57,005 nucleotides of DNA from an uncultured Leifsonia sp. (GTDB lineage Bacteria; Actinomycetota; Actinomycetes; Actinomycetales; Microbacteriaceae), in assembly GCF_945957465.1 (NCBI RefSeq), contig NZ_CAMFLC010000023.1, forward strand, positions 1 through 57,005, in the 5' to 3' direction. Made by a program: the position numbers and the translations under genes. Positions 17,275 through 34,372 of this stretch are shown here, piece by piece. The notes beneath the pieces were generated by a model. The model was not told where the DNA came from. It was given only the letters and a program-made list of their open reading frames with translations, and ran no database searches. Positions within the stretch are counted from its first letter, which is position 1. Each line of letters opens with the position of its first letter.

Positions 17275-18090
17275 TCAGTCGTGCGGCGGCGTGAGCAGGT
17301 CGGCCAATCGCTCCAGCTGCTGCGACCACCCCGGCTCGAGCCCGGCCAGCATGGGCGCCGCCGCAGGGTCGGTGGTACTCGCCCGCACAGAGACGCTCAG
17401 GATGGTCGCGGTCGCAGTGGCGGTCGGCGCTGCTGCCTCCGGCTCCAGCCGCACCTCCACCCGCACGGGGAACACGACGGCCCCGTCCGCGTCCAGCGGC
17501 GAGAGCTCGAACAGCAGGCGCGACGGCTGGTCGACCTCGCGAACCGTTCCCGCCGACGCGTACTCGGCGCCGTCGCCCTCGCGCAGCACCAGTTCCACGG
17601 GCGCTCCCACCGTCGGGGCGATCGCCGCACGCACGACCTCGAAGTGCCGCGGCGCCCACCACCGGGCGGCGAGGTCCGGGTCGGTCCAGACGCGCCAGAC
17701 CGCGTCACCGGATGCCGGGAGGGAGCGTTCGAGCGTGAAGGCGACCGCCGCCGCGCCATCGGCGCCCGCGCGACGTTCGGCGGTGGCGATGTCCGCGGCA
17801 TAGCTCTCGAGGGCCCTGTCGTCCTCGGTCCGCTCGGCCAGCCCGGTGAACCAGGCGCCGAGCTGTCTCAGCGATTCGCGATCCAGGCTCGCGAGCCGGC
17901 GTCGACCCAGGCGCTGCACGCGGATGACTCCCGCGGCCTCCAGCGCCTGCACGTGCTTCGTCGTCTGGGGCTGCAGGGCGCCGAGCGCCGAGGTCAACTC
18001 GCCGACGGTGCGGGGGCCATCGGCCAGGAGGGCGACGATGCGGAACCGAGTCGGCTCCCCGATCGTCGCCAAGACCTGCTGCGCGTCCAC
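17275..18090 (-). CDS. ArsR-type regulator fused to SRPBCC (AHSA1-like) domain
   Basis: A 271-residue two-domain protein. Residues 1-85 form an ArsR winged helix (VLATIGEPTRFRIVALLADGPRTVGELTSALG...QTTKHVQALEAAGVI). The rest is an AHSA1/SRPBCC ligand-binding fold (FTLERSLPASGDAVWRVWTDPDLAARWWAPRHFEV). GTG 18090 is chosen because GAGGAGG lies five bases upstream. It is divergent from another SRPBCC gene, with a perfect 16-bp palindrome between them, so it probably represses both. A ligand held by the SRPBCC domain may be the inducer. Confidence 0.88.
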   Translation of the reverse strand: MDAQQVLATIGEPTRFRIVALLADGPRTVGELTSALGALQPQTTKHVQALEAAGVIRVQRLGRRRLASLDRESLRQLGAWFTGLAERTEDDRALESYAADIATAERRAGADGAAAVAFTLERSLPASGDAVWRVWTDPDLAARWWAPRHFEVVRAAIAPTVGAPVELVLREGDGAEYASAGTVREVDQPSRLLFELSPLDADGAVVFPVRVEVRLEPEAAAPTATATATILSVSVRASTTDPAAAPMLAGLEPGWSQQLERLADLLTPPHD

Positions 18091-18126
18091 TTCGCCTCCT
18101 CTACGCACAATAATGGGTGTTGCCGC

Positions 18127-18142
18127 ATTCGTCTAGACGAAT
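18127..18142. promoter_or_regulatory. Perfect 16-bp palindrome, probable ArsR operator
   Basis: ATTCGTCTAGACGAAT is a perfect palindrome in the 96-bp space between the divergent ArsR-SRPBCC and SRPBCC genes. Its half-site ATTCGT is also the half-site of the triple-dyad element found elsewhere in this window, but with a four-base centre instead of one or three. Confidence 0.7.
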
Positions 18143-18186
18143 ATATGGTGACTCCCGAATGCACCGACCATCGACAGGAGAACGCC

Positions 18187-18645
18187 ATGAAGACCATCGA
18201 ACGCACCGTCGCCGCGCAGCCTCAGACCGTGTGGGACCTCTGGACCACCGCCGACGGCATCTCGCAGTGGTGGGCGCCCGACGGCTTCCGCACCGACGTG
18301 GACGCCCTCGACCTGCGGCCCGGCGGCGAACTCGTCTACACGATGACCGCCGAGGCCCCGGAGCAGGTGGCGTTCCTCGAGCAGAACGGGCTGCCGCTCA
18401 GCACCGAGTCGCGCAAGGTCTTCACCGAGCTCGAGCAGCCCACCCGGATCGCCTACCGATCGGTCATCGACTTCGTCCCGGACCACGAGCCGTACGAGCA
18501 CCTCACCGTCGTCGACCTCCACCCGACCACCGAGGGCACCCGCGTCGTCATGCAGGTCGAGGAGCTGCACGACAACGTCTGGACCGAGCGCCTCCTGGCG
18601 GGCCGGGCGAATGAGCTGGAGAACCTGGCCCGGCTGGTGGGGTGA
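18187..18645 (+). CDS. SRPBCC (AHSA1-like) domain protein
   Basis: A 152-residue single-domain protein: KTIERTVAAQPQTVWDLWTTADGISQWWAPDGF opens the fold and a long C-terminal helix (ERLLAGRANELENLARLVG) closes the hydrophobic cavity. ATG 18187 follows AGGAG. It is the divergent partner of the ArsR-SRPBCC regulator, and such pairs are common in actinobacteria. Ligand unknown. Confidence 0.87.
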   Translation: MKTIERTVAAQPQTVWDLWTTADGISQWWAPDGFRTDVDALDLRPGGELVYTMTAEAPEQVAFLEQNGLPLSTESRKVFTELEQPTRIAYRSVIDFVPDHEPYEHLTVVDLHPTTEGTRVVMQVEELHDNVWTERLLAGRANELENLARLVG

Positions 18646-18662
18646 GGGGCCGGCCCGCGGCC

Positions 18663-19586
18663 CTACGCGTCCGCCAGCTCGGTCGGCTCGACGACGGCAT
18701 CCACGAGCGCGCCGTTGCGCCACACCGTGAGCTCGAGGCGACGACCGATCGTGCTCGCGATCATCAGCCGCTGGAGGTCGGCCACGGCGTGGGCCCGCAT
18801 GCGGTCGAGGGAGATCAGGACGTCGCCGGGCCGCACACCCGCGAGGTCGGCCGGGCTGTCGGGCACGACCGACATCACCTGGATGCCGGTGCGGGCGCCC
18901 GCCTTGCGCGCGACCTCCGCCTGCAGCGTGATCTCCGCTCCGGCGATGCCGAGCCAGCCGCGACGCACCCTGCCTTCGCGCATCAGCGTGTCCACGATCT
19001 GCCTGCTGGTGGCGTTGACCGGAACGGCGAGGCCGAGGCCGGTTCCGGCGACGGCCGTGTTGACGCCGATCATGCGCGCCGAGCTGTCGGCAAGCGCGCC
19101 TCCGCTGTTGCCGGGGTTGAGGGCGGCGTCGGTCTGGATGACCTCGTCGACCACCCGGCCCGACCGGGTGGGCAGCGAACGCCCGAGCGCCGAGACGATG
19201 CCGGCGGTCACGCTTCCCGCGAGGCCCAGCGGGTTGCCGACCGCCACGACGAGCTGACCGACCCGGAGGGCGCCCGCGTCGCCGAGCTCGACGGGCGCGG
19301 GGACCGGCTCGTCCGCCTGCAGCACGGCCAGGTCCGAGAGCGGGTCGCGCCCGGCCACGTGCGCGGTGACCCGCGTGCCGTCGCCGAACGCCAGCTCGAC
19401 TCGGCTCGCGCCCTCCACCACGTGCGCGCTGGTGAGCAGGTGCCCCTGCTGCGACACCACCGTCGCGCTGCCGAGACCGACCCCGCGGGAGGTCCGCGCG
19501 GTCACCGACGCGACCGCCGGTCCGACCGCGGCCGCGACCTTCACCACCACAGCCGAGTAGGCGTCGAGGGCTTCCGCATCCGTCAT
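18663..19586 (-). CDS. HtrA-like trypsin-type serine protease with PDZ domain
   Basis: A 307-residue protease. The triad is His55 (TSAHVVEG), Asp85 (DPLSDLAVL) and Ser161 (NPGNSGGAL). A PDZ domain follows (RRGWLGIAGAEI...VVPDSPADLAGVRPGDVLISLD). No signal peptide or membrane span precedes the protease domain, unlike many DegP/HtrA proteins, so the product may be cytoplasmic. The ATG at 19586 has no clear ribosome site; the open frame continues upstream through the triple-dyad repeat, where the sequence is repeat-derived, so I reject the longer start. Confidence 0.87.
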   Translation of the reverse strand: MTDAEALDAYSAVVVKVAAAVGPAVASVTARTSRGVGLGSATVVSQQGHLLTSAHVVEGASRVELAFGDGTRVTAHVAGRDPLSDLAVLQADEPVPAPVELGDAGALRVGQLVVAVGNPLGLAGSVTAGIVSALGRSLPTRSGRVVDEVIQTDAALNPGNSGGALADSSARMIGVNTAVAGTGLGLAVPVNATSRQIVDTLMREGRVRRGWLGIAGAEITLQAEVARKAGARTGIQVMSVVPDSPADLAGVRPGDVLISLDRMRAHAVADLQRLMIASTIGRRLELTVWRNGALVDAVVEPTELADA

Positions 19587-19665
19587 GAGACGAGTGTGCG
19601 CCGCCGGCGCGGCGAGCGCGCGCGGGTTCGCCGACGGCGGACCCGCAACGGCCTCTACCGCCGCA

Positions 19666-19722
19666 GGATTCGTCACGAATCCGCACATTCGTGGCACGAA
19701 TCGCGACATTCGTCACGAATGT
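19666..19722. repeat. Triple-dyad intergenic element, copy A
   Basis: Three dyads with centres at 19674, 19694 and 19714, exactly 20 bp apart: ATTCGTCACGAAT (19668-19680), ATTCGTGGCACGAAT (19687-19701), ATTCGTCACGAAT (19708-19720), with short extra pairing at the edges. The stop codon of the alpha/beta hydrolase remnant (19713-19715) lies at the centre of the third dyad. The element lies between two minus-strand genes. Confidence 0.85.
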
Positions 19723-20626
19723 GCGGCGGCGCGCGGCGGCGTCAGCGCGGCGCGGAGCGCGGCGGCGACCTGCTGCGGCTTGCCGCCGTCGGCGGCGTTC
19801 TGGGTCGCCGAGTGGCCGGCGCCGTCGATGGTGGCGGTCGCGGCGTCGGGCAGCAGCCGGTGGAGGCGATCGACGGCGTGCCGCAGGTATCCGGGCGACT
19901 TCGCAGCACCGAGGAGGACGACGGTGCCGCGGAGCGCACGGTAGTCGTCGATGCGGTCGGCGCGCTCGGCGACGATGCGCATGTCGTACGGCACCGCCCG
20001 CGCGAGCTCGCTCATGGCGGCGCCGCCGACGGGGATGGCGCCCTCCTTCGCGATCATCTTCCGCGTGGTCGACTCGAGCATCCGGCGCGGGAAGAAGCGC
20101 AGGAAGCCCGGGCCCATCTGCGTGCCGAGCAGCGCGGTGACCAAGTAGGCGGGGACGTCGCCGCGCGCGACCTCCGGCTCGAACCGGCGCAGGAAGGCGT
20201 CGAGGTCGAGCGAGCCGTCGGCCACCAGGGCGGGCTCGAAGAGTACGATCGCGAGCCCGGGATCGCGGAGGCCGACCTCCGCGGCGAGGATTCCGCCCGA
20301 GCTGATGCCGAGCACCGTCGTCGCGCCCGTAGCCGCCACCACGGTCCGGATGTCGGAGACCTCCATGCTCGGGTCGTAGTCGGCGAGCGCCGGTAGTCGC
20401 CGCTGCGGCCACGTCCGCGGCGGTTCATCAGGTGCACGGTGAACGTGCCGGAGAGCGCCTCGGCCAGCTCGCGCTGGCTGGCCGCGGACTGCATCGTTCC
20501 GTGCACGACGACGAGGCCCGGTCCCGAGCCTGTGCTGAAGTACTCGATCGGCGTGCCATCCTCGGAGGATGCGAGGTGCGCGGTGAGCGTGCCGGTGGGT
20601 GCTGCGGTGCTGGCTGTGCGGGGCAT
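19713..20626 (-). pseudogene. Alpha/beta hydrolase, interrupted by a frameshift
   Basis: The product reads as one alpha/beta hydrolase only across a frame change. The first part starts at ATG 20626 (AAAGGA upstream): LVVVHGTMQSAASQRELAEAL carries the oxyanion His-Gly, and MNRRGRGRSGDY follows. Near 20385-20405 the frame must shift by one base to continue as ALADYDPSMEVSDIRTVV and LGISSGGILAA, the nucleophile elbow (GxSxG), through to GAGHSATQN with the catalytic His. One base appears to be missing. This is either a recent inactivating mutation or a sequencing error; both halves keep good codon bias. It is divergent from the MarR gene. Confidence 0.75.
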
Positions 20627-20652
20627 CGGAGTTCCTTTCGTGAGAGTGCCAA

Positions 20653-20673
20653 TTGTCTTAGTGCCTAAGATAA
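20653..20673. promoter_or_regulatory. MarR-type operator between hydrolase and MarR genes
   Basis: TTGTCTTAG, three bases, CTAAGATAA: a 9-bp inverted repeat with one mismatch. It overlaps GATAAT (20669-20674), a good -10 box for the MarR gene, and lies 27 bases before the hydrolase start. Autoregulation and control of the hydrolase are expected. Confidence 0.7.
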
Positions 20674-20697
20674 TGAGTGAGTGAGAGGTTTGCAAGA

Positions 20698-21165
20698 GTG
20701 GATGTGACGGATCGCGATGCCCTCATCGCACGGCTGACCGACCTCGGCGCGCAGTCGGCCAGCCTGACCGCGCTCTTCCAGCAGCGCGCGGCGGCGAGCT
20801 ACGGCCTCGGCGTCAGCGACATGAAGGCCCTCGACCTCCTCGTGCGCGACGGCCCGCAGACCGCGGGCAGCCTCGGCGCGGCACTCGGCCTGACCTCCGG
20901 GGCGATCACCGGCATCGCCGACCGGCTGATCGCGCGCGGACTCGCCCGCCGCGAGGTCGACCCGGCCGACCGTCGCCGGGTGCTCCTCTCGGCCGACTTC
21001 GCGGTGCTGTCATCGGGCCCGAACGTGTACCAGTGGATCGGAGAGGCGTTCCGGGCCCTGCACGACTCGCTGACCACCGAGCAGCTCGCCTTCCTCGTCC
21101 GGTATCAGGAGCAGTCCATCGCACTGACCCAGGAGGCGGTCGAGCGGCTGGCGGAGGGCGAGTAG
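20698..21165 (+). CDS. MarR-family transcriptional regulator
   Basis: A 155-residue regulator with the MarR winged helix (MKALDLLVRDGPQTAGSLGAALGLTSGAITGIADRLIARGLARREVDPADRRRVLLSA). I prefer GTG 20698 to GTG 20677: the -10 box GATAAT ends at 20674 and GAGAGG (20683-20688) is nine bases before 20698. It is divergent from the frameshifted hydrolase, and an inverted repeat overlaps its promoter. The ligand is unknown. Confidence 0.88.
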   Translation: MDVTDRDALIARLTDLGAQSASLTALFQQRAAASYGLGVSDMKALDLLVRDGPQTAGSLGAALGLTSGAITGIADRLIARGLARREVDPADRRRVLLSADFAVLSSGPNVYQWIGEAFRALHDSLTTEQLAFLVRYQEQSIALTQEAVERLAEGE

Positions 21166-21280
21166 GCCGCGCGGCTCAGGCTCCCATCCCGCCGTCCGCC
21201 GTCGCCATGGCGTTCCCTGAAAGCGCACCAAGAGTGCGTCAACAGTTGCACCCCGAAATGCACCTCCAAACGCCGCTGCC

Positions 21281-21323
21281 GAATCCGCCCTTCACCACTC
21301 GCAGCGTGGTGAAGGGCGGATTC
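21281..21323. terminator. Perfect 18-bp stem-loop
   Basis: GAATCCGCCCTTCACCAC (21281-21298), a seven-base loop, and its exact complement (21306-21323). The stem is longer than a terminator needs. It may end the MarR transcript from the left, but there is no T tract and it lies about 115 bases after that stop. Its role is uncertain. Confidence 0.5.
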
Positions 21324-21353
21324 TGCACCTTTCGAACGCACGGACACGCACGA

Positions 21354-21390
21354 GAAAGGCCCCCGCTTCATCGCGAAGCGGGGGCCTTTC
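21354..21390. terminator. Rho-independent terminator, 16-bp stem
   Basis: GAAAGGCCCCCGCTTC, five-base loop, GAAGCGGGGGCCTTTC. It lies 15 bases beyond the stop of the minus-strand gene at 21406 and probably ends the small-membrane-protein operon; it could also serve the MarR gene from the other side. Confidence 0.75.
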
Positions 21391-21405
21391 CGAGGGTCGC
21401 ACAAG

Positions 21406-21801
21406 TTACGAGCGGGAGCGGCCCCGGATGGTGGCGATCGCAACGGTGAGCAATGCCATGACTTGCGTCAGCACCCCGATCCCTATCAGCCAGGCCCAGC
21501 CTCGGTACGCCACCGCTGGATAGACCAGGGCAAGCGGAACCAGAATCGTCACGGTGAGCGCGACACGCGCGAGGGTTGCATGCCTTGGATTCGCGGTCCG
21601 CGTGCGTCGGTTGAGCCGCGGGATGGCTAGAACGGCAACCAGCAAGACCGTGAACGACGCCGTCAACACCCACGACGGCGTGGCCTGCCCTCGAAGGATG
21701 AATGCAGCTGGCGCCGCCGTGATGAGCACGATCACCGCGAGCATCGTCACCATCGGCGCCCCGGCGGCCGGAACGTAGGGCCGCTTGATGGTGTCAGACA
21801 T
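21406..21801 (-). CDS. Four-span hypothetical membrane protein
   Basis: 131 residues from ATG 21801, chosen over 21816 because GGGAGGA lies six bases upstream. Four hydrophobic spans are visible (VTMLAVIVLITAAPAAFIL, WVLTASFTVLLVAVLAI, LARVALTVTILVPLALVYP, WLIGIGVLTQVMALLTVAIA), with a basic loop RLNRRTRTANPRH in the middle. No family recognised. It is the last gene of a minus-strand run of small membrane proteins (23010 to 21406). Confidence 0.65.
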   Translation of the reverse strand: MSDTIKRPYVPAAGAPMVTMLAVIVLITAAPAAFILRGQATPSWVLTASFTVLLVAVLAIPRLNRRTRTANPRHATLARVALTVTILVPLALVYPAVAYRGWAWLIGIGVLTQVMALLTVAIATIRGRSRS

Positions 21802-21830
21802 GACGCTTCCTCCCATTCTTGCCGATTATC

Positions 21831-22109
21831 TCAGCAGGGCTCTATGACGAGGTGCGTTGTCGACATCGGCACGTAGATCAGGGCTCGCATCCCGATGCAC
21901 TTGCCCGCGTTCAGTGCGGTCGTCGCCTGCTGTCCGACGTAGGCGGAAGCGAACCCGCAGGCCAACGCACCGATTGGTCCGTGGAGGTCATCAGCTGTTG
22001 GTACTGCGTTGTACACGTTGGTACTCCGCAGAACGCAGTTCCTCTGGTCTCGGAGTAATAGGCGTTCGTCGTAGTGACGCTGGCCGGCAACGATCGTTAC
22101 GACGGGCAT
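21831..22109 (-). CDS. Small hypothetical protein
   Basis: A 92-residue frame from ATG 22109 with GCAGGA four bases upstream. It has three Cys and a Gly/Ala-rich middle (GALACGFASAYVGQQATTALNAG) but no clear membrane span or known motif. It sits between two membrane-protein genes on the same strand. The sequence is less GC-biased than most of the window; it may be a real lineage-specific gene or the remnant of a longer one. Confidence 0.4.
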   Translation of the reverse strand: MPVVTIVAGQRHYDERLLLRDQRNCVLRSTNVYNAVPTADDLHGPIGALACGFASAYVGQQATTALNAGKCIGMRALIYVPMSTTHLVIEPC

Positions 22110-22134
22110 CGATCCTGCCCTTCGGCTCGCGCCC

Positions 22135-22410
22135 TCAACCGGTTGATCGTTTGCTGGCCGACTTGAGCATGCGTCGAGTACGAAAGTAGACCCAGACGTA
22201 TCCGAGGAGTACCAATAGGCCTGCGACCCCGAAGATCACGCCGACACCACTGGGGGCGAAGATTGCTGCAACGAACAGGCCTACGGCACCCAGGAGAAGG
22301 GCCAACCGGGCGCCCAGGATCACCCCCAGCAGTCCGGCTGACATTCCCGAGCTGCCTTCGCCTTGCTTGCCAGTCCCCAAAGGATCATCCTCTCCAAGCT
22401 CTTTCGACAA
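22135..22410 (-). CDS. Small hypothetical membrane protein
   Basis: A 91-codon frame beginning with TTG 22410, or 69 residues if translation starts at ATG 22344. Two hydrophobic spans (VILGARLALLLGAVGLFVAAIF and VGVIFGVAGLLVLLGYVWVYF) are followed by a basic tail TRRMLKSASKRSTG. The start is uncertain because the TTG has no ribosome site and overlaps a short upstream frame. No family recognised. Confidence 0.5.
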   Translation of the reverse strand: MSKELGEDDPLGTGKQGEGSSGMSAGLLGVILGARLALLLGAVGLFVAAIFAPSGVGVIFGVAGLLVLLGYVWVYFRTRRMLKSASKRSTG

Positions 22411-22489
22411 GCGCGATGACGAGCATCAGGGACGCCCCACCGAGCCAGTAGGGCCGGCTGCGCCTCCAGAGTGAAGCAAACCATCGCAT
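22385..22489 (-). CDS. Possible 34-residue membrane peptide
   Basis: ATG 22489 opens a short frame: a Trp/Arg-rich N-terminus (MRWFASLWRRSRPYW), then a short hydrophobic stretch (LGGASLMLVIALV) and a stop overlapping the next gene's N-terminal codons. There is no ribosome site. It is reported because its composition suits a membrane peptide and it fills the gap between two genes of the same run; it may be chance. Confidence 0.3.
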   Translation of the reverse strand: MRWFASLWRRSRPYWLGGASLMLVIALVERAWRG

Positions 22490-22519
22490 CAGCTGTATGC
22501 CCGTACGTTCTGCCCTATG

Positions 22520-22909
22520 TCACCCGTTCCCGAAGTTTCTCCGATTGAGCCACTCATCGAACGAGGTGGCCCAGGTGCAACATGTCGCCTCGCACCGAGC
22601 ACACCGGGAGGTCGGCCAGAGGAGCTTCCAAGCTCGGAGCTGCACATGCAACAGAGCAGCGAGAAAGCCCGTCATGGAAACAACCATCATTGCGATTCCG
22701 ACGGACAATACCGCCGTTCTCGAAGGCGCCGACCACCTTCCCACTCGCATCCAGCGCGGCAAGTCCTGTTGGAGTTCCTGGTCTTCAGAGGCCTTCTTGA
22801 CGTTCTCGACGAATCTCCCGCGGAAGACAACGATCGCCAACCCAGCGAGAAACCCGATAGGACAGACCACCAAGGCTCCCACCCATCGGATCAGTTCACT
22901 CGTGGCCAT
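22520..22909 (-). CDS. Two-span hypothetical membrane protein
   Basis: 129 residues from ATG 22909 (CGGAGCGG just upstream), overlapping the end of the 39-residue gene before it. Spans are IRWVGALVVCPIGFLAGLAIVVF and TAVLSVGIAMMVVSMTGFLAALL, joined by a charged cytoplasmic-type loop (RGRFVENVKKASEDQELQQDLPRW). The C-terminal part has CARCEATCC, a cluster of Cys that could bind metal. No family recognised. Confidence 0.55.
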   Translation of the reverse strand: MATSELIRWVGALVVCPIGFLAGLAIVVFRGRFVENVKKASEDQELQQDLPRWMRVGRWSAPSRTAVLSVGIAMMVVSMTGFLAALLHVQLRAWKLLWPTSRCARCEATCCTWATSFDEWLNRRNFGNG

Positions 22910-23010
22910 GGGCCCGCTCCGCTCCTGAGTTGCCGCCGGAAGAGAAACACCAGGATTCCGACGACCGAGACAATCGGGCCGACGATCAGATTGGGGAGCA
23001 CGATACTCAT
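22891..23010 (-). CDS. 39-residue single-span membrane protein
   Basis: ATG 23010 follows GGAGAA at seven bases and the stop overlaps the next gene, so translation is probably coupled. The peptide is MSIVLPNLIVGPIVSVVGIL with the span continuing as VFLF, then RRQLRSGAGPWPRVN. This is the first gene of the small-membrane-protein run. It was found by reading the strand directly because it is short. Confidence 0.55.
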   Translation of the reverse strand: MSIVLPNLIVGPIVSVVGILVFLFRRQLRSGAGPWPRVN

Positions 23011-23129
23011 CGGATTCTCCTTACCGCGCCCAGCCGCCTCCGCGTGAACATTGTGCCCCAAGGCCGACGCCGCGGCACGCCTTTCCGTAGGCCCGATTCA
23101 CTCGGTTTGCGCACCCGCCTGCCACCACG

Positions 23130-24134
23130 TCAAACGCCGCTCACCGCCACCACTCGCACCGCCTCCCGCCGCCCCTGCGCGAACCCCGCTCGCGCCGACG
23201 GCGGCCGGGTGGCCGGGTCCATCTGGTTCGCGCCCATCGCCTCCAGGGACGCGGGGTCGGGCGTGATCACCACGACGCGACTCCCGTGCGCGCGCAGCGC
23301 CTCCACCTGGTCGTCCAGCCCGTAGCCGGGGAAGCGCCGGATGCCCTCGAACTGTCCGGGTCGCTGCCAGTCGGGGCCGCCGAACGGCGAGAGCACGATC
23401 ACGGTCGCGTAACCTGCGGCCAGGTCGGCGTTCTCGGCCGAGCGCACGCCCCCGTTGATGTAGTGCTCACCGTCGATGACGTGGGTGGCTGTGCCGCCGG
23501 GCAGCGCCGTGCTCGCCGTGACCGCGTCGGCCAGGTCGACACCCGAGGTTCGGTCGAACGTGACCAGTTCGCCGGTGCGCGCGTTGAGCGCCACCACGAG
23601 CAGCGGCCGCTCCGGCCAGTCCTGGCGGGGTAGGCGGGAGGCGACGAGTGCTCGCCGCTGCTCTGCTCCGGGACGGAGGACGGCGTCACTCTCCAGGGCG
23701 AAGGCGCCCAGTGCCCGGTGCAGCTCCTCGGCGGTCCCGGCCGCTGCGCCGATCGCACGCAACCGTTCGAACAGCTCCTGCTGCGGGATGCCCTGCGGGC
23801 GGCCCTGCGGGCGGCCGCCGGAGCCTTCCGGTGCCGCCGTTGCAGTGCCGGACGCCGACTCAGCACCGGAGGCCGCAGCAGCGCCGCCCGGCCGAGGCGG
23901 CGCCAGCAGGGCCGCCTCATACAGCTCGGCTGCCGGGATGCCGCTGCGCACGGCGGCGCCCGCGGTCGACCCCGCCGAGGTGCCGATGACCAGGTCGGCG
24001 AGTTCGGTGAGGTCGTAGCCCGCGTCGGCGAGGCCGGCGATGACGCCCAGCTGCCAGGCGTTGCCGGCGGAGCCTCCACCGCCGAAGACGAGGGCGATGC
24101 CGTGCGAAGACGGCGATTCAGGGTTGTGGTTCAT
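23130..24134 (-). CDS. Patatin-like phospholipase family protein
   Basis: A 334-residue patatin-fold protein from ATG 24134 (GAAGGAT seven bases upstream). The oxyanion motif is GGGGSAG (18-24) and the nucleophile elbow GTSAG has Ser53. The usual second member of the dyad, Asp in DG(G/A), is replaced by Asn227 in HYINGGVRS, so catalysis may be weak or changed. An insert rich in Ala, Gly and Pro, with repeats of GRPQG, lies at about residues 80-116. It may act on acyl esters at the membrane. No operon partners are evident. Confidence 0.85.
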   Translation of the reverse strand: MNHNPESPSSHGIALVFGGGGSAGNAWQLGVIAGLADAGYDLTELADLVIGTSAGSTAGAAVRSGIPAAELYEAALLAPPRPGGAAAASGAESASGTATAAPEGSGGRPQGRPQGIPQQELFERLRAIGAAAGTAEELHRALGAFALESDAVLRPGAEQRRALVASRLPRQDWPERPLLVVALNARTGELVTFDRTSGVDLADAVTASTALPGGTATHVIDGEHYINGGVRSAENADLAAGYATVIVLSPFGGPDWQRPGQFEGIRRFPGYGLDDQVEALRAHGSRVVVITPDPASLEAMGANQMDPATRPPSARAGFAQGRREAVRVVAVSGV

Positions 24135-24376
24135 GTCGTGATCCTTCGAAAACGGGGCGCGGCACCCGGATCGACGACCGAACGGCCGGCGGCTGAAGCG
24201 CGCTAGAGGATCCGACGCGAAGGGGTGGGCACCCGACTGCTGATGGAAATCGGACTCACCTCCTCGATCGGCGCGCTGCGAGAGCGCGAGCGAATGAACG
24301 CTTGAACGATAGCCGCAGCGGCGCCCGCACCGCAAACGCCCGCCTCACGCCGCCCGACGGGAGCGGTGGAGGTCGC

Positions 24377-24970
24377 TCAGCCGAAGACCAGGTACGTCCC
24401 GGGCTTGCCCGGCTCGCGCAGCTCGAAGCGGAGGCCGAGGTCGGTGCCGGCGAGAAGGCCCGCCTGCTGCTCGAGCTGCTCGTTCGTGACGAAGACGATC
24501 CGCTCGAAGCCCCAGGCGTCGCGGAGCCAGCTGCGGAGCGCGTCGAGCAGCGGCGCGTCGAGGCCGGCCTCCAGCTGAGACGAGCGCACCCAGAAGTAGG
24601 CGAAGACGTCGACGTCCTGCCAGGCGTCATCCGCCAGCGGTGTGACCGCCGACTTCGCCAGGAACGTCGCGGTCGTCGGGAACAGGTAGACGCAGCCGAG
24701 GCAGACCGTGTCCTCCGGGTCGCGCACGGTGAACGTGAAGGCGCGGTGCTCGGCGTGCCGCTGCTGCAGGCCGACGAGGTCGGCACGGTTCGCCTCCACG
24801 GTGAAGTCGTCGGCCGGCCAGGCCGACTGCTCCCACAGGCGGAGCGCAGCCCGGCTCTCCATCACCGCGGCGTAGTCGTCTTCGGCGTCGTCGGCGACGA
24901 TCGGCCGCAGCACGAAGCGCTCGGTGGTGAGCCCGTCGGGGACCGGCCCGGCCGGATCATGGAACGACAT
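24377..24970 (-). CDS. GNAT-family N-acetyltransferase
   Basis: 197 residues. The N-terminal LTTERFVLRPIVADDAEDDYAAVMES is typical of RimJ/RimL-like GNAT enzymes, followed by FTFTVRDPEDTVCLGCVYLFP and DVDVFAYFWVRSSQ. The Q/RxxGxG pyrophosphate loop of canonical GNATs is poorly conserved, so substrate and activity are uncertain. It starts seven bases after the stop of the MBL-fold gene, so the two are co-transcribed. Confidence 0.8.
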   Translation of the reverse strand: MSFHDPAGPVPDGLTTERFVLRPIVADDAEDDYAAVMESRAALRLWEQSAWPADDFTVEANRADLVGLQQRHAEHRAFTFTVRDPEDTVCLGCVYLFPTTATFLAKSAVTPLADDAWQDVDVFAYFWVRSSQLEAGLDAPLLDALRSWLRDAWGFERIVFVTNEQLEQQAGLLAGTDLGLRFELREPGKPGTYLVFG

Positions 24971-24977
24971 TGCGGGG

Positions 24978-25790
24978 TCAGGCTCCCTCGGCGGACGAAC
25001 CCGCGATCGACAGCTGGTCGAGCTGACGCTCGTGCACGGTGCGCACGAACTCCCAGCCCTCGCGTGGCGACTCGACGCGCTCGTCCTGCGGCTCGCGGCC
25101 GTCGCGCAGCGTCTCGACGTACGCCCGGTCGCGGGCGAGCCGATCGCGCAGCGCGGTGGCGTCGCCCACCGAGCCGTGACCGGGGATCACGACGGCGGCC
25201 TCCCCCGCCCGCGACTGCAGCAGGACCAACGCAGCGAGGTAGTCGTCGAGCGGATCGGCCGCGCCGGCCAGGTCGAGCAGGGGGACGAACACGTCGGAGA
25301 GCATGTCGCCTGCGACCAGCACCCCGGCCTCCTCGACCAGCAGCGCCGCATGCCCCGGCGCGTGCGCGCTGTGCTCGAGGATGCGGACCACGGGGCCGTC
25401 CCAGGGCACGCGATCGGCGCCCTCCGGCAGCCCGGCGATGTCGTCGCCGAGGCCGTCGAGACGCACGTCCTCCGGAATCCCGAAGCGGCGGGCGTCGATC
25501 CCGTTCGCGAGGCGCCGGCGTGCGGTCTCGGCGGCCACACCGCTGGCCCAGTGCGCCGACTTCCCGAGGGCCGGATGCCACAGCAGGTGGTCCCAGTGCG
25601 GGTGCGTCGCGAAACCCGCGACGACCGGGTGCCCTGCCCGCTGGAGATCGTCGGCGAGGCAGAGGATCTCGCTCTCGTGGATGCCCGGGTCGACGACCAG
25701 CGCCCCCGACGCTCCCACGACGACCACCGCGTTGGTCTGGCACCACGCGCTGGTATGGACGAACACTCCGGCAGCCACTTCGTTGAGCAC
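24978..25790 (-). CDS. MBL-fold metallo-hydrolase
   Basis: A 270-residue metallo-beta-lactamase-fold protein. The metal motif is THPHWDH, with later ligands His in SAHAPGHAALL, Asp in VAGDMLSD and His in VIPGHGSVGD. I choose GTG 25790, not the frame opening at 25868, because TAGGTT (25798-25803 on the minus strand) lies exactly seven bases before it, as in other leaderless genes here. The fold covers beta-lactamases, glyoxalase II and lactonases; substrate unknown. It is followed by the GNAT gene. Confidence 0.87.
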   Translation of the reverse strand: MLNEVAAGVFVHTSAWCQTNAVVVVGASGALVVDPGIHESEILCLADDLQRAGHPVVAGFATHPHWDHLLWHPALGKSAHWASGVAAETARRRLANGIDARRFGIPEDVRLDGLGDDIAGLPEGADRVPWDGPVVRILEHSAHAPGHAALLVEEAGVLVAGDMLSDVFVPLLDLAGAADPLDDYLAALVLLQSRAGEAAVVIPGHGSVGDATALRDRLARDRAYVETLRDGREPQDERVESPREGWEFVRTVHERQLDQLSIAGSSAEGA

Positions 25791-25919
25791 GAGAGCCAAC
25801 CTACCCCGCGGCACCGACGAACGAGACGCGGCGCTGGGCGCGCACTCCGGTCGTCGGGAACCGCTCACGGCATCGCCCCGATCATCCCGCGTTCCATCCG
25901 CCCGCGCTCGCGCAGTCGC

Positions 25920-26594
25920 TCATGCGGAAGCGGGGCGCAATCCGCCTGCGTGCCGCGATCGCCGACCTTCCGCTACATAGAGGACGCCTGTGGCGAGCTG
26001 GAGCACCTCCGACGCCAGCAGCGCGACGATCCAGATCGGGATGGCGGCGAGGCTCGGGATCCGGCCGGCAAGGAGTGCGATGACGGTCGCCGAGACGACA
26101 GCGGGAAGCGCCCAGCGGGCGGCGCCACGGACCACGCCCGCGCGGAAGACAACCGTGGCGGCGACGATCAGGGCGGCGAGCGACAGGAGAACGCTGCCCC
26201 AGATCAGCGTGCTCCAGAGCGCGAGGACGGCCGGATCCGCCTCCGCACTCGGAGCGGGCAGCCTGAAGTACCCGATGGAGGTGCTGTGCGCCACTGCGAA
26301 GACCACGAGAGCCGCCTTGCCGACGGTGGAAGTGCCCGCGATTCCCGTCTCTCCCTGCACTCCGAGAGCGAGGGCGACGAATGAGGCGATCAGCACGACC
26401 GCCGAAACCCCTCCGACCGCGGCACTGCTCGTGAACACCCACGACATGTCCATGGCGGGGAAGACCAACCCCGCGTTCGACAGCAACGGGAACAGCGATG
26501 CCAGCGCGACCCCTGCACCACCCCAGGTCAGCGTCCGTCGCGATGTCGACGTCTGTCGTGGTGTGCCGTCAGTCGCGCTCGTGGTCTCCCCCAT
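25920..26594 (-). CDS. Six-span hypothetical membrane protein
   Basis: 224 residues from ATG 26594. After a Ser/Thr-rich N-terminus there are about six hydrophobic spans, including WGGAGVALASLFPLLSNAG, AVVLIASFVALALGV, AALVVFAVAHSTSIGYF, STLIWGSVLLSLAALIVAA and IWIVALLASEVLQLA. No family recognised. It is divergent from the membrane-protein pair at 26690-27537; the three may share a role, but nothing in the sequence shows it. Confidence 0.65.
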   Translation of the reverse strand: MGETTSATDGTPRQTSTSRRTLTWGGAGVALASLFPLLSNAGLVFPAMDMSWVFTSSAAVGGVSAVVLIASFVALALGVQGETGIAGTSTVGKAALVVFAVAHSTSIGYFRLPAPSAEADPAVLALWSTLIWGSVLLSLAALIVAATVVFRAGVVRGAARWALPAVVSATVIALLAGRIPSLAAIPIWIVALLASEVLQLATGVLYVAEGRRSRHAGGLRPASA

Positions 26595-26689
26595 GGCACC
26601 AGACTGGCCGGAGGGGCGGTCGATCGGCAAGCGCTCGACGTCGGATCCGTGCCAGGATCGGAGTCGACGCCGACACGAGGGGGAACGTG

Positions 26690-27178
26690 ATGCGGACGAT
26701 GGGGACGCCGACGGTCGACACCGGGGAGCTGTCGCGGCTGCCGGCCGGGCCGATCCTGGTGCGGCTGCGGCGGGTGCTGATCACCACGGCGGGCGCAGCC
26801 GCGGTGTACACCCTGCTGGGCACGGGGAGCATCGGGACGTGCGCGGACACGCCCGGTTCCGCCGCCGGCGGGTCCGGCACCACCCAGGTGACCTGCGCGA
26901 ACCTCGTGATGCACCCGAGCTGGATCGTCTACGCGGCGCTCGCGGCCATCCTGTTCGTCGCGATCGGACGGATCGCCCGTCGGGCGTCGAGTGTGCCTGA
27001 GGCGCTGCGGATGCTCGATCGCGCCGCGATCGTCGCCGTGGCGGTCGCAGTGGTCTCGGGGCTCATCGGGATGGCGTGGCTGTTTCTCGTCCCGGTCCAC
27101 TCGCTGACCGAGGGCGGCACGATCGTCTTCCCGTTCCCGTTCAGCGCGCCCGAGCTGACGATCACGCACAACCCATGA
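26690..27178 (+). CDS. Hypothetical membrane protein with extracytoplasmic Cys loop
   Basis: 162 residues starting at ATG 26690 (GTG 26687 also possible) behind GAGGGGGA. The first span (VLITTAGAAAVYTLLGTGSIG) is followed by a loop with two Cys (TCADTPG...VTCANL) that may form a disulfide outside the cell, then two more spans. The end overlaps the next start (ATGA at 27175-27178). No family recognised. Confidence 0.7.
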   Translation: MRTMGTPTVDTGELSRLPAGPILVRLRRVLITTAGAAAVYTLLGTGSIGTCADTPGSAAGGSGTTQVTCANLVMHPSWIVYAALAAILFVAIGRIARRASSVPEALRMLDRAAIVAVAVAVVSGLIGMAWLFLVPVHSLTEGGTIVFPFPFSAPELTITHNP

Positions 27179-27537
27179 CCGCCCCCGCCCGCGAGCTCGC
27201 CCCGCGCCGGCCCCGGCTGGTCGCCTTCGCGCTCGTGGCCGCCCACGTCGCCCTGGCCGTCCTCCTGGTGATGGTCGCGCTCTCGGTGTCGCTCGCGATC
27301 GGCGGTCCCGGGATCGGGCGGGACGAGCTGAACCGCCTGGGCCCCGCCCTGCCGCTCGCCGTCGCGGGCGCGGCCGTCCCGGTACCCGTGGCCGCGACCG
27401 CCGCGCTTGCCCTCGCGCTGAGCGCGCGGCCGCAGCGCGCCTGGAGGGCTCCCGTCATCGGCGCGGTCGCGAGCGTGGCGCTGTGCGGTGTCGCGGTGGC
27501 CTTCGTCCACGTGCCCGCTCCGCTGATCGGCGGCTGA
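27175..27537 (+). CDS. Hypothetical three-span membrane protein
   Basis: 120 residues, translationally coupled to the previous membrane protein. Spans: VAFALVAAHVALAVLLVMVALSVSLA, LPLAVAGAAVPVPVAATAALALALS and APVIGAVASVALCGVAVAFV. Ala/Val-rich with no known motif. Both proteins of this pair probably form one small membrane complex. Confidence 0.65.
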   Translation: MTAPARELAPRRPRLVAFALVAAHVALAVLLVMVALSVSLAIGGPGIGRDELNRLGPALPLAVAGAAVPVPVAATAALALALSARPQRAWRAPVIGAVASVALCGVAVAFVHVPAPLIGG

Positions 27538-27538
27538 G

Positions 27539-27544
27539 TAGCAT
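27539..27544 (+). promoter_or_regulatory. -10 box of leaderless VOC gene
   Basis: TAGCAT ends seven bases before ATG 27552, the same spacing seen at several other leaderless genes in this window. This places the start at 27552 rather than at ATG 27543, which lies inside the -10 box itself. Confidence 0.5.
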
Positions 27545-27551
27545 GCTCGAC

Positions 27552-27989: not shown

Positions 27990-28042
27990 CTACGGGCGGC
28001 AAGCGATCGCGATCGGCCCGGCCGCGGGCCGGCCGGTCGCGG

Positions 28043-28459: not shown

Positions 28460-28559
28460 GGTTCGGTTCCCCTCTTGTCGGTGTGGATTCACTGTACGAG
28501 CGCGGACGCGCCGGCCGCTTCTCCGATCCTGCTCGGTTCGGGATCGAGTGGTCGACTTC

Positions 28560-28610: not shown

Positions 28611-28699
28611 AGCCAAATCCCGTCACAGCGATCACACTGTCCGCACGCGGCACTTCCGTCGCACCGGGCGAAGGGTGCCGAGCACAAGGGAGGTATGCC

Positions 28700-28933
28700 G
28701 TGACCATGCACCCGTCCATCCACCACGTCCCGCACCTCGACGAGATCTCGCCGGTGCCCTACCTGCGGCACGGTCAGCTCATCTCGCTCATCCGCTGGAA
28801 CCGCGTCGCCGGCGACTGGAAGTACACGACCCTCCTGGCCGAGTACGCCGGGCGCGACGACAAGCACTGGCGGGTGGTCGCGCACGGCCAGCCGATGGCC
28901 CTCGACCGCGCCGAGTGGGCGATCTTCAACTGA
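28700..28933 (+). CDS. Small hypothetical protein
   Basis: 77 residues from GTG 28700, with GGGAGGT six bases upstream. His-rich N-terminus (MTMHPSIHHVPHLDEISPVP), then WNRVAGDWKYTTLLAEYAGRDDKHWRVVAHG, a pattern of a small beta-strand protein. No membrane span. Similar short proteins occur in actinobacteria without known role. Its stop lies 24 bases before copy B of the triple-dyad element. Confidence 0.65.
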   Translation: MTMHPSIHHVPHLDEISPVPYLRHGQLISLIRWNRVAGDWKYTTLLAEYAGRDDKHWRVVAHGQPMALDRAEWAIFN

Positions 28934-28956
28934 GCTGCACCGCAGCGCGCCGCCAC

Positions 28957-29013
28957 ATTCGTCACGAATGCCGCTTTTCGTGGCACGAATGTCGACATTC
29001 GTGACGAATGTCG
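28957..29013. repeat. Triple-dyad intergenic element, copy B
   Basis: Dyad centres at 28963, 28983 and 29003, exactly 20 bp apart: ATTCGTCACGAAT (28957-28969), TTCGTGGCACGAA (28977-28989, outer pair lost through A to T at 28976), ATTCGTGACGAAT (28997-29009, extending to a 21-bp dyad). The element fills the gap between the 3' ends of convergent genes ending at 28933 and 29017. Confidence 0.85.
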
Positions 29014-29016: not shown

Positions 29017-30561
29017 CTACGGCGTCGGGAGGAGCGGGCGCACGGAGGCGTAGGGGTCGGCGGCGTCGCGCGTCGGCGTGTCGTAGACGCGCCCGATCCG
29101 GGCCGGCTCCGCGTAGCGCGCCCAGCCGGGGTCGCCTCCGGCCACGAACGCGACGGCCGCACCGTGCACCTCGTCCGCGAGCGCCTGCGGCGGGTTCGGC
29201 CCGGCCAGGGGCTCCATCGCGGGCCCGTCGAGGCAGTCGAAGAAGAACGGGACGTCGAGGCAGTGCTCGGCGAACCCGAAATGACCCGACGGCCACGCGA
29301 ACCGGTAGAGCCAGGTGGGCGCGGAGCCGCGGGCGGCGACGACGTCCAAGACCGGGACGCGGAACATCCGGTCGGTCAGCACCCGGCCCGCCAGCCGGGC
29401 CTTGCCGGCGGCGACGACGTCGGCGTTCGCCTCCAGGTAGGCCGTGTGCGCGGACTTCGGCACTCCGAGCTTGCCGAGGAGCACGCGCTTCGGCACGAGT
29501 GCGAGCTTCGACCCGGCGTCGGCCATCGCCATCGTGAACTCGTCGTCGGTGGCGCCGAGCACGAGCGGCTTGTCGGCTCCGACCCCGCTGCGGAGCGACT
29601 CCGGGGTGGAGCGCACGAGCAGGTCGCCGTCGATCGCCGGGCCGAGCGGCAGGCCGCGGTCGACGACCTCGTTCAGTGCGCCCGGGCCGAGCTCCGTCGC
29701 CTTCTTCTGCAGCTCGACGATCCGCTCCTCCGCGAGCGTCGACCAGCCGGCTCGGGTGGGCTCGACACCGGCGGTCGCGGCGAGCGCGCGGCCGAAGGCC
29801 TCCGACCGCTCCGGCGCCACGTCGGCCAGGGCGCCCGAGATCGCGTACGCGGCGCGGAACAGGTGCTGCGCCCGCTCCATACCGAGCAGTGTCAGCACGG
29901 CCCCGCCGCCCGCGGACTGGCCGGCGATGGTCACCCGTGCGGGATCGCCGCCGAACGCCGCGATGTTCTGCTGCACCCACTCCAGTGCGAGCAGCCAGTC
30001 GCGCACGCCGCGATTGGAGGGGGCGTCCTCGATCCAGCCGAAGCCGTCGAAGCCCAGCCGGTACGAGATGGTCACGGTCACGACGCCGTCGCGGTTGAAG
30101 TTGCGCCCGTCGTACCAGGGACTCGCGGGCGAGCCGGCGAAGTACCCGCCGCCGTGGATGTACACGAGCACCGGAAGCCCCTCTCCGTCCGGCGCCCGCT
30201 CGGGGCTCGGAGTGTGCACGTTGACGTTGAGGGTGGACTCGCCTGGGATGCTCGGCTCGGGGATGAGGGTCACGCCGGGGTCGCCGCGCTGGGCCGTGGC
30301 CCCGAACCCGTCCGCGTCGAGCACGCCCTCCCACGGGGCCTTGGGCACGGGCGCGGCGAACCGCAGCTCGCCGACCGGCGCCTCGGCGAACGGGATGCCG
30401 AGGAACGCGGCCGAGCGCAGGGCTCCGCGCGGGCCGGAGCCGGGAGCGGTGGTGTCCTTCCAGCGGCCGCGTACCACGCCGGCGACTGTCCGCACCTCGG
30501 GGTGCGGGAGCCAGGCGGCGGCGGCCTCCTCGCCGGTGGATGAGGTCTGGGTGTTCTCCAT
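29017..30561 (-). CDS. Type-B carboxylesterase/lipase family protein
   Basis: A 514-residue carboxylesterase of the para-nitrobenzyl esterase type. Oxyanion motif YIHGGGYFAGS (134-144), nucleophile Ser216 in GQSAGGG, acidic residue in GATDDEFTM, and catalytic His in FGFAEHCLDVPFFF. There is no signal peptide, so it should be cytoplasmic. The start ATG 30561 has GGAAGG about nine bases upstream. It hydrolyses carboxylic esters; the natural substrate is unknown. Convergent with the small gene at 28700 across element copy B. Confidence 0.92.
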   Translation of the reverse strand: MENTQTSSTGEEAAAAWLPHPEVRTVAGVVRGRWKDTTAPGSGPRGALRSAAFLGIPFAEAPVGELRFAAPVPKAPWEGVLDADGFGATAQRGDPGVTLIPEPSIPGESTLNVNVHTPSPERAPDGEGLPVLVYIHGGGYFAGSPASPWYDGRNFNRDGVVTVTISYRLGFDGFGWIEDAPSNRGVRDWLLALEWVQQNIAAFGGDPARVTIAGQSAGGGAVLTLLGMERAQHLFRAAYAISGALADVAPERSEAFGRALAATAGVEPTRAGWSTLAEERIVELQKKATELGPGALNEVVDRGLPLGPAIDGDLLVRSTPESLRSGVGADKPLVLGATDDEFTMAMADAGSKLALVPKRVLLGKLGVPKSAHTAYLEANADVVAAGKARLAGRVLTDRMFRVPVLDVVAARGSAPTWLYRFAWPSGHFGFAEHCLDVPFFFDCLDGPAMEPLAGPNPPQALADEVHGAAVAFVAGGDPGWARYAEPARIGRVYDTPTRDAADPYASVRPLLPTP

Positions 30562-32400: not shown

Positions 32401-32967
32401 ATGGTCAAGCGAGGCGCGTACGCGAAGGGGGTCGTGAAGCGCGAGGGGATCCTCGAGGCCGCACTCGAGATCATCGGTCGGCGCGGGTACCGCAGCGCGT
32501 CGGTCCGCGAGATCGCGGACGCGGTGGGCCTGAGCCCGGCCGGACTGCTGCACTATTTCGGCTCCAAGGAACAGCTGTTCGTCGACATCCTCCGCGCCCG
32601 GGACGCGGCCGACTCGCGGCAGGTCCCCGACGCCGGAGTCGAAGAGTCGCTGGTCGCGATCATCCGGCACAACGAGCAGGTGCCCGGGCTCGTCGAGCTC
32701 TACACACGCCTCGCGGCGGAGGCCGGGGACCCCGCTCACCCGGCCCGTGCCTTCTTCCTCGACCGCACGGCGATCGTGCACGCGGCGGCGCGCGAGGCGG
32801 TCGTCGCCGAACAGCGCGCCGGGCGCATCCGGGCCGAGCTCGACCCGGAGTGGATCATCCGCGCCGGCCACGCACTCGCCGACGGCCTCCAGAACGCCTG
32901 GATCCTCGACCCGACGATCGACATGGCCGCAGACGTCGAGCAGTTCTTCGCCCTCCTGAAGCCCTGA
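32401..32967 (+). CDS. TetR-family transcriptional regulator
   Basis: 188 residues. The N-terminal helix-turn-helix reads ILEAALEIIGRRGYRSASVREIADAVGLSPAGLLHYFGSKEQLF; the C-terminal ligand domain is all-helical. The gene is convergent with the phenylacetate-CoA ligase gene across element copy C. A TTACCGA-N4-TCGGTAA palindrome in front of the phenylacetate operon is a possible target, but the APC permease to its left is another, and the sequence does not decide. Confidence 0.88.
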   Translation: MVKRGAYAKGVVKREGILEAALEIIGRRGYRSASVREIADAVGLSPAGLLHYFGSKEQLFVDILRARDAADSRQVPDAGVEESLVAIIRHNEQVPGLVELYTRLAAEAGDPAHPARAFFLDRTAIVHAAAREAVVAEQRAGRIRAELDPEWIIRAGHALADGLQNAWILDPTIDMAADVEQFFALLKP

Positions 32968-32973: not shown

Positions 32974-33031
32974 GCGACATTCGTCACGAATGTCGCGATT
33001 CGTGCCACGAATGTCGCGATTCGTCACGAAT
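32974..33031. repeat. Triple-dyad intergenic element, copy C
   Basis: Dyad centres at 32985, 33005 and 33025, exactly 20 bp apart: ATTCGTCACGAAT (32979-32991, extending to a perfect 23-bp dyad 32974-32996), ATTCGTGCCACGAAT (32998-33012), ATTCGTCACGAAT (33019-33031). It lies between convergent genes ending at 32967 and 33059. Confidence 0.87.
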
Positions 33032-33058: not shown

Positions 33059-34372
33059 TCAGCGGTAGTCGTAGACGCGCTTGTACTTGCCCTCGCTGCG
33101 GGGGAGGTCGCCCGGCTCGGCGAGGACAACCTCGACGGTGGTTCCGATGTGCGTCTTGATGCGCTGGCGGAGCACCTCCGCGGCGGCCTCGCACACGTCG
33201 CGCTCGAGGGCCGGATGGCGTTCGATGCGCACGGCGAGCGTGTCGAGCCTGCCCTGCTTGCGCAGTTCGAGCACGAAATGCGGAGTGAGCGTCTCGATGC
33301 CCAGCACGAGTTCCTCGATCTGCGTCGGGAAGAGGTTCACACCGCGCAGGATGATCATGTCGTCGTCGCGTCCGGTGATCTTCTCGATGCGACGAAATGC
33401 CGGGTACGTGCTGCCGGGCAGCAGGCGGGTCAGGTCGCGGGTGCGGTAACGGATGACCGGGAACGCCTCCTTGGTCAGCGAGGTGAACACGAGTTCGCCG
33501 TGTTCGCCGTCCGCGACCGTCTCGCCGGTCTCGCCGTCGATCGTCTCGGGGAGGAAGTGGTCCTCCCAGACGTGCGGGCCGTCCTTCGTCACCACCGACT
33601 CGCTGGCGACGCCGGGCCCCATGACCTCGCTGAGCCCGTAGATGTCCACGGCATCCAGGCCCAGCCGGCGCTCGATCTCCACGCGCAGCTCGTTCGTCCA
33701 GGGCTCCGCGCCGAGGATCGCGACCTTGAGCGACGTGCCGCGCGGGTCGAGCCCCGCCGCCTCGATGGCGTCCGCGATCGTCAGCAGGTAGCTGGGCGTG
33801 CACATGATCGCTTCCGGCTGGAAGTCGTGGATGAGCTGCACCTGCCGGGCGGTCTGCCCTCCGGACATCGGGATGACGGTCGCGCCGATCCGCTCGATCC
33901 CGGCGTGCGCGCCGAGGCCTCCCGTGAACAGGCCGTACCCGTAGGCGTTGTGCACCTTCCAGCCGGGCTCCACGCCCGCGGCCCGCAGCGATCGCCCGAC
34001 CAGGTCGGCCCAGCGGTCGAGGTCGCCCTGCGTGTAGCCGACCACAGTCGGGCGCCCGGTCGTGCCGGACGACGCGTGGATGCGGCGCACCTCCCCCATC
34101 GGGACGGCGAACATCCCGAACGGATACGTCGACCGCAGGTCCTCTTTGGTGGTGAACGGCAGCCGCCGGATGTCGTCGAGCGAGCGGATGTCGTCGGGGG
34201 CGACTCCGGCCGCGTCGAACTTCGCACGGTAGAGCGGGACGTCGGCGTAGGCGTGGCGCACCGTCCACTGCACGCGCCTGAGTTGCAGGTCGCGGAGCTC
34301 GTCGCGCGTGATCGCCACGGGATCCACCTCTGCGAGGTCGAGCCCGGCGGCAGCGGTGGTCGTCTTCGGCAC
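33059..34372 (-). CDS. paaK: Phenylacetate--CoA ligase
   Basis: A 437-residue adenylate-forming enzyme converting phenylacetate, ATP and CoA to phenylacetyl-CoA. AMP-binding P-loop IHASSGTTGRPTVVGYT; IYGLSEVMGPGVA and TKEAFPVIRYRTRDLT are family signatures, with the C-terminal domain from GRDDDMIILRGVNLFP. GTG 34372 has GGGAGG six bases upstream. It lies 14 bases after the PaaI-type thioesterase gene. The ring epoxidase genes (paaABCDE) and beta-oxidation genes are not in the window, so the pathway must be completed elsewhere or the ligase serves another arylacetate. Confidence 0.93.
   Translation of the reverse strand: MPKTTTAAAGLDLAEVDPVAITRDELRDLQLRRVQWTVRHAYADVPLYRAKFDAAGVAPDDIRSLDDIRRLPFTTKEDLRSTYPFGMFAVPMGEVRRIHASSGTTGRPTVVGYTQGDLDRWADLVGRSLRAAGVEPGWKVHNAYGYGLFTGGLGAHAGIERIGATVIPMSGGQTARQVQLIHDFQPEAIMCTPSYLLTIADAIEAAGLDPRGTSLKVAILGAEPWTNELRVEIERRLGLDAVDIYGLSEVMGPGVASESVVTKDGPHVWEDHFLPETIDGETGETVADGEHGELVFTSLTKEAFPVIRYRTRDLTRLLPGSTYPAFRRIEKITGRDDDMIILRGVNLFPTQIEELVLGIETLTPHFVLELRKQGRLDTLAVRIERHPALERDVCEAAAEVLRQRIKTHIGTTVEVVLAEPGDLPRSEGKYKRVYDYR

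Follow-up and report, generated by a model that had tools for sequence, protein, structure and literature searches.

What might be the role of a short palindromic element that recurs three times within a single stretch of a Leifsonia genome, each time with the same geometry? The window, meaning the whole analysed stretch of 57,005 nucleotides from an uncultured Leifsonia sp. (contig NZ_CAMFLC010000023.1), had been described in a sequence-only reading as carrying nine dyads with centres at 19674/19694/19714, 28963/28983/29003 and 32985/33005/33025, and we confirmed all nine. Copy A (19668..19720) comprises dyads at 19668-19680, 19687-19701 and 19708-19720 in the order S-L-S, with centres 20 bp apart. 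To its left lies a gene for a trypsin-like peptidase with a PDZ domain (18663..19586, reverse strand), and an alpha/beta hydrolase gene (19713..20366, reverse strand) has its 3' end inside the third dyad, so that copy A is partly genic and the intergenic location originally proposed needs qualification. Copy B (28957..29009; dyads 28957-28969, 28976-28990 and 28997-29009) is situated between convergent genes, namely one for a 77-aa protein lacking a Pfam match (28700..28933, forward strand), which ends 23 bp before the copy, and one for a carboxylesterase (29017..30561, reverse strand), whose 3' end is found 7 bp past it. Copy C (32979..33031; dyads 32979-32991, 32998-33012 and 33019-33031) is likewise between convergent genes: a TetR-type regulator gene (32401..32967, forward strand) ends 11 bp before it, and the gene of an AMP-binding, CoA-ligase-like enzyme (33059..34372, reverse strand) has its 3' end 27 bp past it. 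Apart from the 77-aa protein, these products were identified with the gene caller and Pfam, and the six flanking genes thus encode four enzymes of differing kinds, the TetR regulator and the 77-aa protein.

We searched the whole genome of origin (4.06 Mb in 112 contigs), using the same patterns reversed as the control. The full three-dyad element was found in 45 copies with at most three mismatches and the single dyad ATTCGTSACGAAT in 80 exact matches, against none for either reversed pattern. A partner at exactly 40 bp accompanies 79 of the 80 exact dyads: 66 of them form 33 pairs, 13 have a mismatched partner dyad, and one is alone. Chance, to which a lack of further copies or a random spacing would have pointed, does not account for 45 elements against zero with a spacing that is exact genome-wide. 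The three-dyad element is genuine, recurrent and rigidly spaced. At one further locus (L313, G000:C37:8981-9033), exact outer dyads 40 bp apart enclose a degenerate middle, GTCGACTTTCGTGCCGACTTTTCGTCG, and this copy was missed by the three-dyad pattern.

The anatomy could be refined by aligning the 45 own copies with 56 copies from L. shinshuensis DP-L11 (G008). The extended dyad reads GAS-ATTCGT-S-ACGAAT-STC, where C and G are similarly frequent at the S positions and A/T is almost absent. The half-sites ATTCGT and ACGAAT hold for all window dyads except the middle dyad of copy B, which begins with TTTCGT; across the own and DP-L11 copies, the first A of the middle dyad is replaced by T in about 15%. 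For the middle dyad, to which a 3-bp centre had been assigned, a reading with 7-bp arms and a 1-bp centre, ATTCGTG-S-CACGAAT, is equally valid. The linkers are variable across the own copies, as had been noticed; in the own and DP-L11 copies they resemble GTCGAC yet are free in sequence, with the two central bases coupled as CG or GC. The three extended footprints of 19, 21 and 19 bp abut without gaps. That all dyads share one face of the DNA is only approximately right, as 20 bp corresponds to 1.9 turns at 10.5 bp per turn and the best fit is obtained at about 10.0-10.2 bp per turn.

Gene contexts were assigned with a gene caller of our own, which relies on codon usage and was trained on DP-L11 stretches and the window. 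Among the 45 own copies, 28 have convergent neighbours, 13 tandem and none divergent ones; one is inside a weak ORF call and three are at contig edges. Of the intergenic bases in the window and nine DP-L11 stretches, 22% belong to convergent gaps, which gives a p value of 4e-10 for the convergent excess of the own copies. For the convergent copies, the nearer of the two stop codons is at a median distance of 13 bp and the farther at 29 bp, and 12 of the 13 tandem copies are closer to the upstream stop than to the next start. Similar distributions were seen in Leaf336 (G011), with 16 of 21 elements convergent, three tandem, one divergent and one inside, and in the DP-L11 stretches examined, with 34 of 56 copies (at most five mismatches) convergent, 20 tandem, one divergent and one inside; the sole divergent copy of these DP-L11 stretches (L031) is located between ORFs of 112 and 406 residues. 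For the other species we considered clusters in 55 of the at least 105 loci found by the contig scan described below, in addition to Leaf336. The convergent, tandem, divergent and edge counts were 7, 3, 4 and 1 for the 15 clusters of L. aquatica, 2, 5, 1 and 2 for H1aii (G002), 8, 8, 1 and 3 for CL147 (G023), 4, 2, 0 and 1 for virtsii and C5G2 together, and 3, 1, 1 and 0 for MAG 71-9; these clusters keep the placement at gene ends with more exceptions than the own copies.

Such a distribution bears on whether an ordinary regulator might use the element as an operator array, in which case the real role of the element would be gene regulation; an Lrp/AsnC-type octamer that wraps phased dimer sites is one example. 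Wrapped Lrp/AsnC operators contain several palindromes of 13-15 bp about two turns apart, and the Leifsonia element, with palindromes of this size every two helical turns, does resemble the sites of wrapping regulators. Unlike those operators, the Leifsonia copies are mostly outside promoters; none of the 41 own intergenic copies is between divergent genes, and the nine neighbour proteins examined with Pfam are of unrelated kinds. The lone exact dyad of the own genome is upstream of dapB, which is not a regulator gene, and of an ORF that resembles GNAT by eye, and we rejected autoregulation of a regulator through its own dyad on this basis. We regard the operator array as very improbable.

A more serious alternative is an RNA element: once transcribed, the palindromes would fold into stem-loops and either act as terminators in both directions or protect the 3' ends of mRNAs, functions that have been proposed for many repetitive extragenic palindromes (REPs). 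The own convergent copies are close to stop codons, a position common to REPs (PMC3733652), and transcripts of the elements fold far better than shuffled sequences in all five cases (z -4.1 to -8.7), both of which favour this explanation. Against it, sequence rather than pairing is conserved: no excess of complementary bases was detected around the dyads, in the linkers or between the centres of the 45 own and 56 DP-L11 copies, and we took the 2 of 14 outer-flank pairs of the own copies at p < 0.05 as chance. The copies of L. aquatica DSM 20146 (G001; 48 analysed, 55 counted by a looser outer-pair pattern allowing at most one mismatch) gave a less uniform picture. In these, the six strongest couplings all join neighbouring bases on the same side (z 17-24), and complementary pairs have a mean z of 0.9 compared with 0.2 for other cross-axis pairs; among single pairs, the complementary pair 25-29 reached z 5.0 and the distant non-complementary pair 15-40 z 11.7. 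The outer centre is preferentially asymmetric, with complementary bases in only 6 and 8 of the 48 copies (22 and 21 expected), and the centre TGC/GCA of this species breaks the 6/8 pair, which counts against the RNA element. Two observations point the other way, namely that 5 of 13 middle pairs, 25-29 among them, have excess complementarity at p < 0.05, and that the centres of dyads 1 and 3 are reverse-complementary in 28 of 48 copies (20.7 in shuffles, p 0.009), a weak symmetry of the whole element that would suit an RNA. Terminator-like sites, for which a T tract was required, numbered five in positions 18000-34500 (3.8 expected), none of them at the three window copies, and the window had no Rfam match at gathering scores; both results count against the RNA element. 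The preference for DNA recognition over RNA folding expressed in the sequence-only reading is therefore upheld by the half-sites conserved at orthologous places, by the missing compensatory pairing in the own and DP-L11 copies and by the adjacent-base couplings in L. aquatica, and weakened by the very stable folding of the transcripts. On these sequence patterns, DNA recognition is probable, and the RNA element, to which we assign a rather low probability, is its main rival.

The three-dyad form proved to be a local version of a wider design. Throughout the genus the invariant part is the outer pair ATTCGnnnCGAAT-N27-ATTCGnnnCGAAT, with dyads 40 bp apart. Allowing at most one mismatch, this pair was detected in 23 of 28 Leifsonia genomes in 1-348 copies, a single copy in G005 and 14 to 348 in each of the 22 other carriers, and the control gave zero in all 28. 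It was not found at this threshold in G003, G004, G012, G014 and G027, and the element is dispensable because these five of the 28 genomes are without it and a sixth has only one copy. A family-wide draw yielded the outer pair in 9 of 10 Leifsonia genomes and in 2 of 388 others, with one unlike copy each. The scan of genome contigs gave at least 105 loci with the pair; of those listed, 103 are from Leifsonia, one is from Microbacterium and one from a Bacteroidia bin. We took copies outside the genus as chance: by eye, the Bacteroidia match and those of two g51 genomes differ in centres and linkers, and the match in Microbacterium sp. 18062 (L189:6636-6688) is one long inverted repeat with ends ATTCGTCACGAAT, likely a large unrelated hairpin. 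Three dyads with a ATTCGTGSCACGAAT middle (at most three mismatches) are confined to four genomes, with 45 copies in the own genome, 73 in DP-L11, 21 in Leaf336 and 125 in TF02-11 (G017), and were absent from the other 24 of the 28 genomes. The description as three dyads at 20-bp intervals hence holds for the own lineage, whereas across the genus only the outer pair at 40 bp is constant and the middle is replaceable. In TF02-11, contigs C1, C5, C12, C24 and C48 begin or end about 200 bp or less from an element; short-read assemblies may thus be interrupted by the repeats, and true copy numbers may be higher than those counted.

What replaces the middle dyad depends on the lineage. The middle of the L. 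aquatica element consists only of an A/T-triplet pattern: in the 48 symmetrised copies, positions 20-22 of the 53-mer and their mirror 32-34 are A/T in 99, 93 and 95%, where A and T are almost equally frequent, and the core between the triplets is G+C. The same triplets recur in small sets from H1aii (12 copies), G006 (25), G020 (9) and G021 (10); CL147 (71 copies), G009 (10) and G015 (8) show them weakly. A 13-bp dyad occupies the middle in G019 and at certain loci of other genomes. With the outer ones included, six A/T triplets are located at 2, 12, 21, 33, 42 and 52, with a phase near 10.0-10.2 bp (R 0.94), although this phasing is not significant alone, as 5.4% of symmetric random layouts are equally good. 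Adjacent elements can also be packed in different ways. Dyad distances of 35 bp (six times) and 25 bp (four times) recur besides 40 bp in G006 (L120, L164-L178), and 35 bp recurs six times besides 40 bp at a single locus of G007 (L179), which suggests that adjacent elements favour certain packings. CL147 contains arrays of up to 12 dyads (L196, L244, L253), which are CRISPR-like in look only; the array at L196 follows a strict 40-bp period with variable 27-bp spacers. The 40-bp spacing counts for L. aquatica, H1aii and 71-9, for CL147 and for the loci from 14 genomes are biased, since these loci were chosen by the 40-bp pattern; less biased are the whole-genome counts of elements and dyads in the own genome, the flank matching in Leaf336 and the comparison of the window with relatives.

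Orthologous places in relatives indicate how such elements come and go. Dyads are present at the place of copy A in DP-L11 and TF02-11, as arrays in both, and in Leaf336. The gap orthologous to that of copy C is occupied in the same three genomes and doubled in two of them, and the gap of copy B is empty in all three. The relatives are too diverged to place insertion boundaries, either here or at one Leaf336 copy that is not syntenic with the window. For eight of the 21 Leaf336 elements, both flanks match those of an own element, and for four more, one flank does. In orthologous single elements from Leaf336 (6 pairs), DP-L11 (10) and TF02-11 (3), identities were 94, 97 and 97% for the dyads, values that are inflated by the requirement of at most 3-4 mismatches for calling elements. 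The corresponding values were 57, 59 and 81% for the linkers, 44, 42 and 40% for the 10-bp flanks, and 88, 88 and 90% for the gene flanks. For some own copies, the gap at the orthologous place in CL147, L. aquatica, G006 and G007 contains outer pairs whose middles differ. A match for 36 of the 45 own copies was found in the relatives' loci examined, a biased figure because the loci were picked by the 40-bp pattern. These orthologue comparisons imply that many sites persist and their half-sites are kept while the centre is replaced. At L103 (DP-L11) and L032 (Leaf336), in the gap orthologous to that of the own locus L048, a second palindromic motif, ATTTGCG..CGCCAAAT / CCACATTTGCGGCGAATGTGG, was seen between or beside the dyads and is possibly another repeat family.

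These comparisons also bear on a selfish or miniature mobile repeat (REP- or MITE-like), which a transposase or template switching would have spread and which would be tolerated where genes end. Copy numbers from 0 to 348, tandem amplification in DP-L11, TF02-11 and CL147, the absence of copy B from three relatives and the 13 of 21 Leaf336 elements without an own element matching both flanks would all fit such a repeat, and insertions would be least harmful at 3' ends. However, at least 8 of the 21 Leaf336 elements share their place with own elements, and the linkers and flanks of the own copies are dissimilar by eye; dyads are preserved in place. A Y1/RAYT transposase (PF01797) was found in none of the 28 genus genomes, with 5 of 14 controls positive. 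The outer pair had no exact match in viral contigs and one 86-bp query no plasmid match, and on these grounds we also rejected a phage or plasmid origin. A mobile repeat seems to us improbable, less so than the operator array.

Among known systems, REPs are the nearest kind. According to PMC3733652 and PMC2817692, REPs are extragenic, situated between convergent or unidirectional genes near stop codons, paired or clustered, and uneven among species. The Leifsonia element shares with REPs and BIMEs the short palindromes, the tens to hundreds of copies per genome, the location 3' of genes and the frequent clustering. In contrast to REPs, it has a fixed 40-bp pair spacing and symmetric dyads and belongs to an actinobacterial genus; the main text of PMC3733652 contains neither the word Actinobacteria nor the word Leifsonia. 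The REP tag is absent, with GTAG in 1 and CGTC in 4 of the 90 outer 8-base flanks; CGAC is the commonest of the four flank words counted (30 of 90). GTAG REPs need RAYT, which the Leifsonia genomes lack as noted above, and REP stems are compensated, whereas the Leifsonia stems are conserved base by base with no clear compensatory change apart from the weak signal in L. aquatica. CGTC REPs are likewise without a dedicated transposase (PMC3733652), but carry a one-sided CGTC tag and rarely form clusters, unlike the Leifsonia element, for which clusters are common in DP-L11 and CL147. We therefore rejected membership among RAYT-dependent REPs for want of the tag and of RAYT. The element works like a REP or BIME and lacks the tag, the transposase and the compensated stem that define them. 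Bidirectional intrinsic terminators are alike in their convergent position and inverted repeats; the Leifsonia element differs from them in its conservation at the sequence level, its exact inter-dyad spacing and, at the window copies, the missing T tract. In the E. coli RIP/BIME-1 elements, two REPs flank an IHF site. Two palindromes at a fixed distance around a bendable centre are common to both designs, but the centre in Leifsonia consists of either a third dyad or a pattern of A/T triplets. The layout had been presented as undescribed, and we found no description of it in the open-access literature that we searched, even though its genomic habits, namely 3' ends, convergent gaps and clusters, are REP-like (PMC3733652). 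One full-text match to a dyad string turned out to be a primer junction.

How could such an element work at the DNA level? The comparisons establish a constant 40-bp frame with two conserved dyads, a centre that is a dyad or coded by shape in most of the sets considered, and a location past stop codons, mostly between convergent genes. Two dimers of one putative protein might read the outer dyads, GAS-ATTCG-nnn-CGAAT-STC, by base at a distance of 40 bp. The centre is either a third dyad, to which a third dimer might bind, or, in several species, A/T triplets about one helical turn apart, and might let the DNA bend or wrap, bringing the bound dimers together in one compact complex. Judging from its position, this complex at gene ends would block or terminate converging RNA polymerases and isolate supercoils. 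We give about even chances to the proposal that the element is a DNA-level binding site of about 59 bp for a putative dimeric Leifsonia protein, most likely used as a two-way barrier at gene ends, as far as sequence and placement can tell. A bolder extension, which we put forward only tentatively and consider rather less likely than not to hold in full, is a genus-specific architectural code. The outer half-sites would be read by base and, in several species, the centre by A/T-versus-G+C shape. The bent or wrapped nucleoprotein block would serve as both a two-way transcription stop and a topological boundary, and the centre might have been re-invented between lineages while the 40-bp frame remained fixed.

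REP-like repeats occur in many bacteria, but their function is difficult to establish in cases where spread driven by RAYT is intertwined with use by the host. Leifsonia offers a REP-like system without RAYT, located mostly at 3' ends and having a rigid 40-bp frame, conservation at the sequence level and a swappable centre across most of the genus. The Leifsonia copies might thus serve as natural replicates for finding the binder and for testing whether DNA-bound proteins make the ends, or provide the insulation, of convergent transcription in bacteria.
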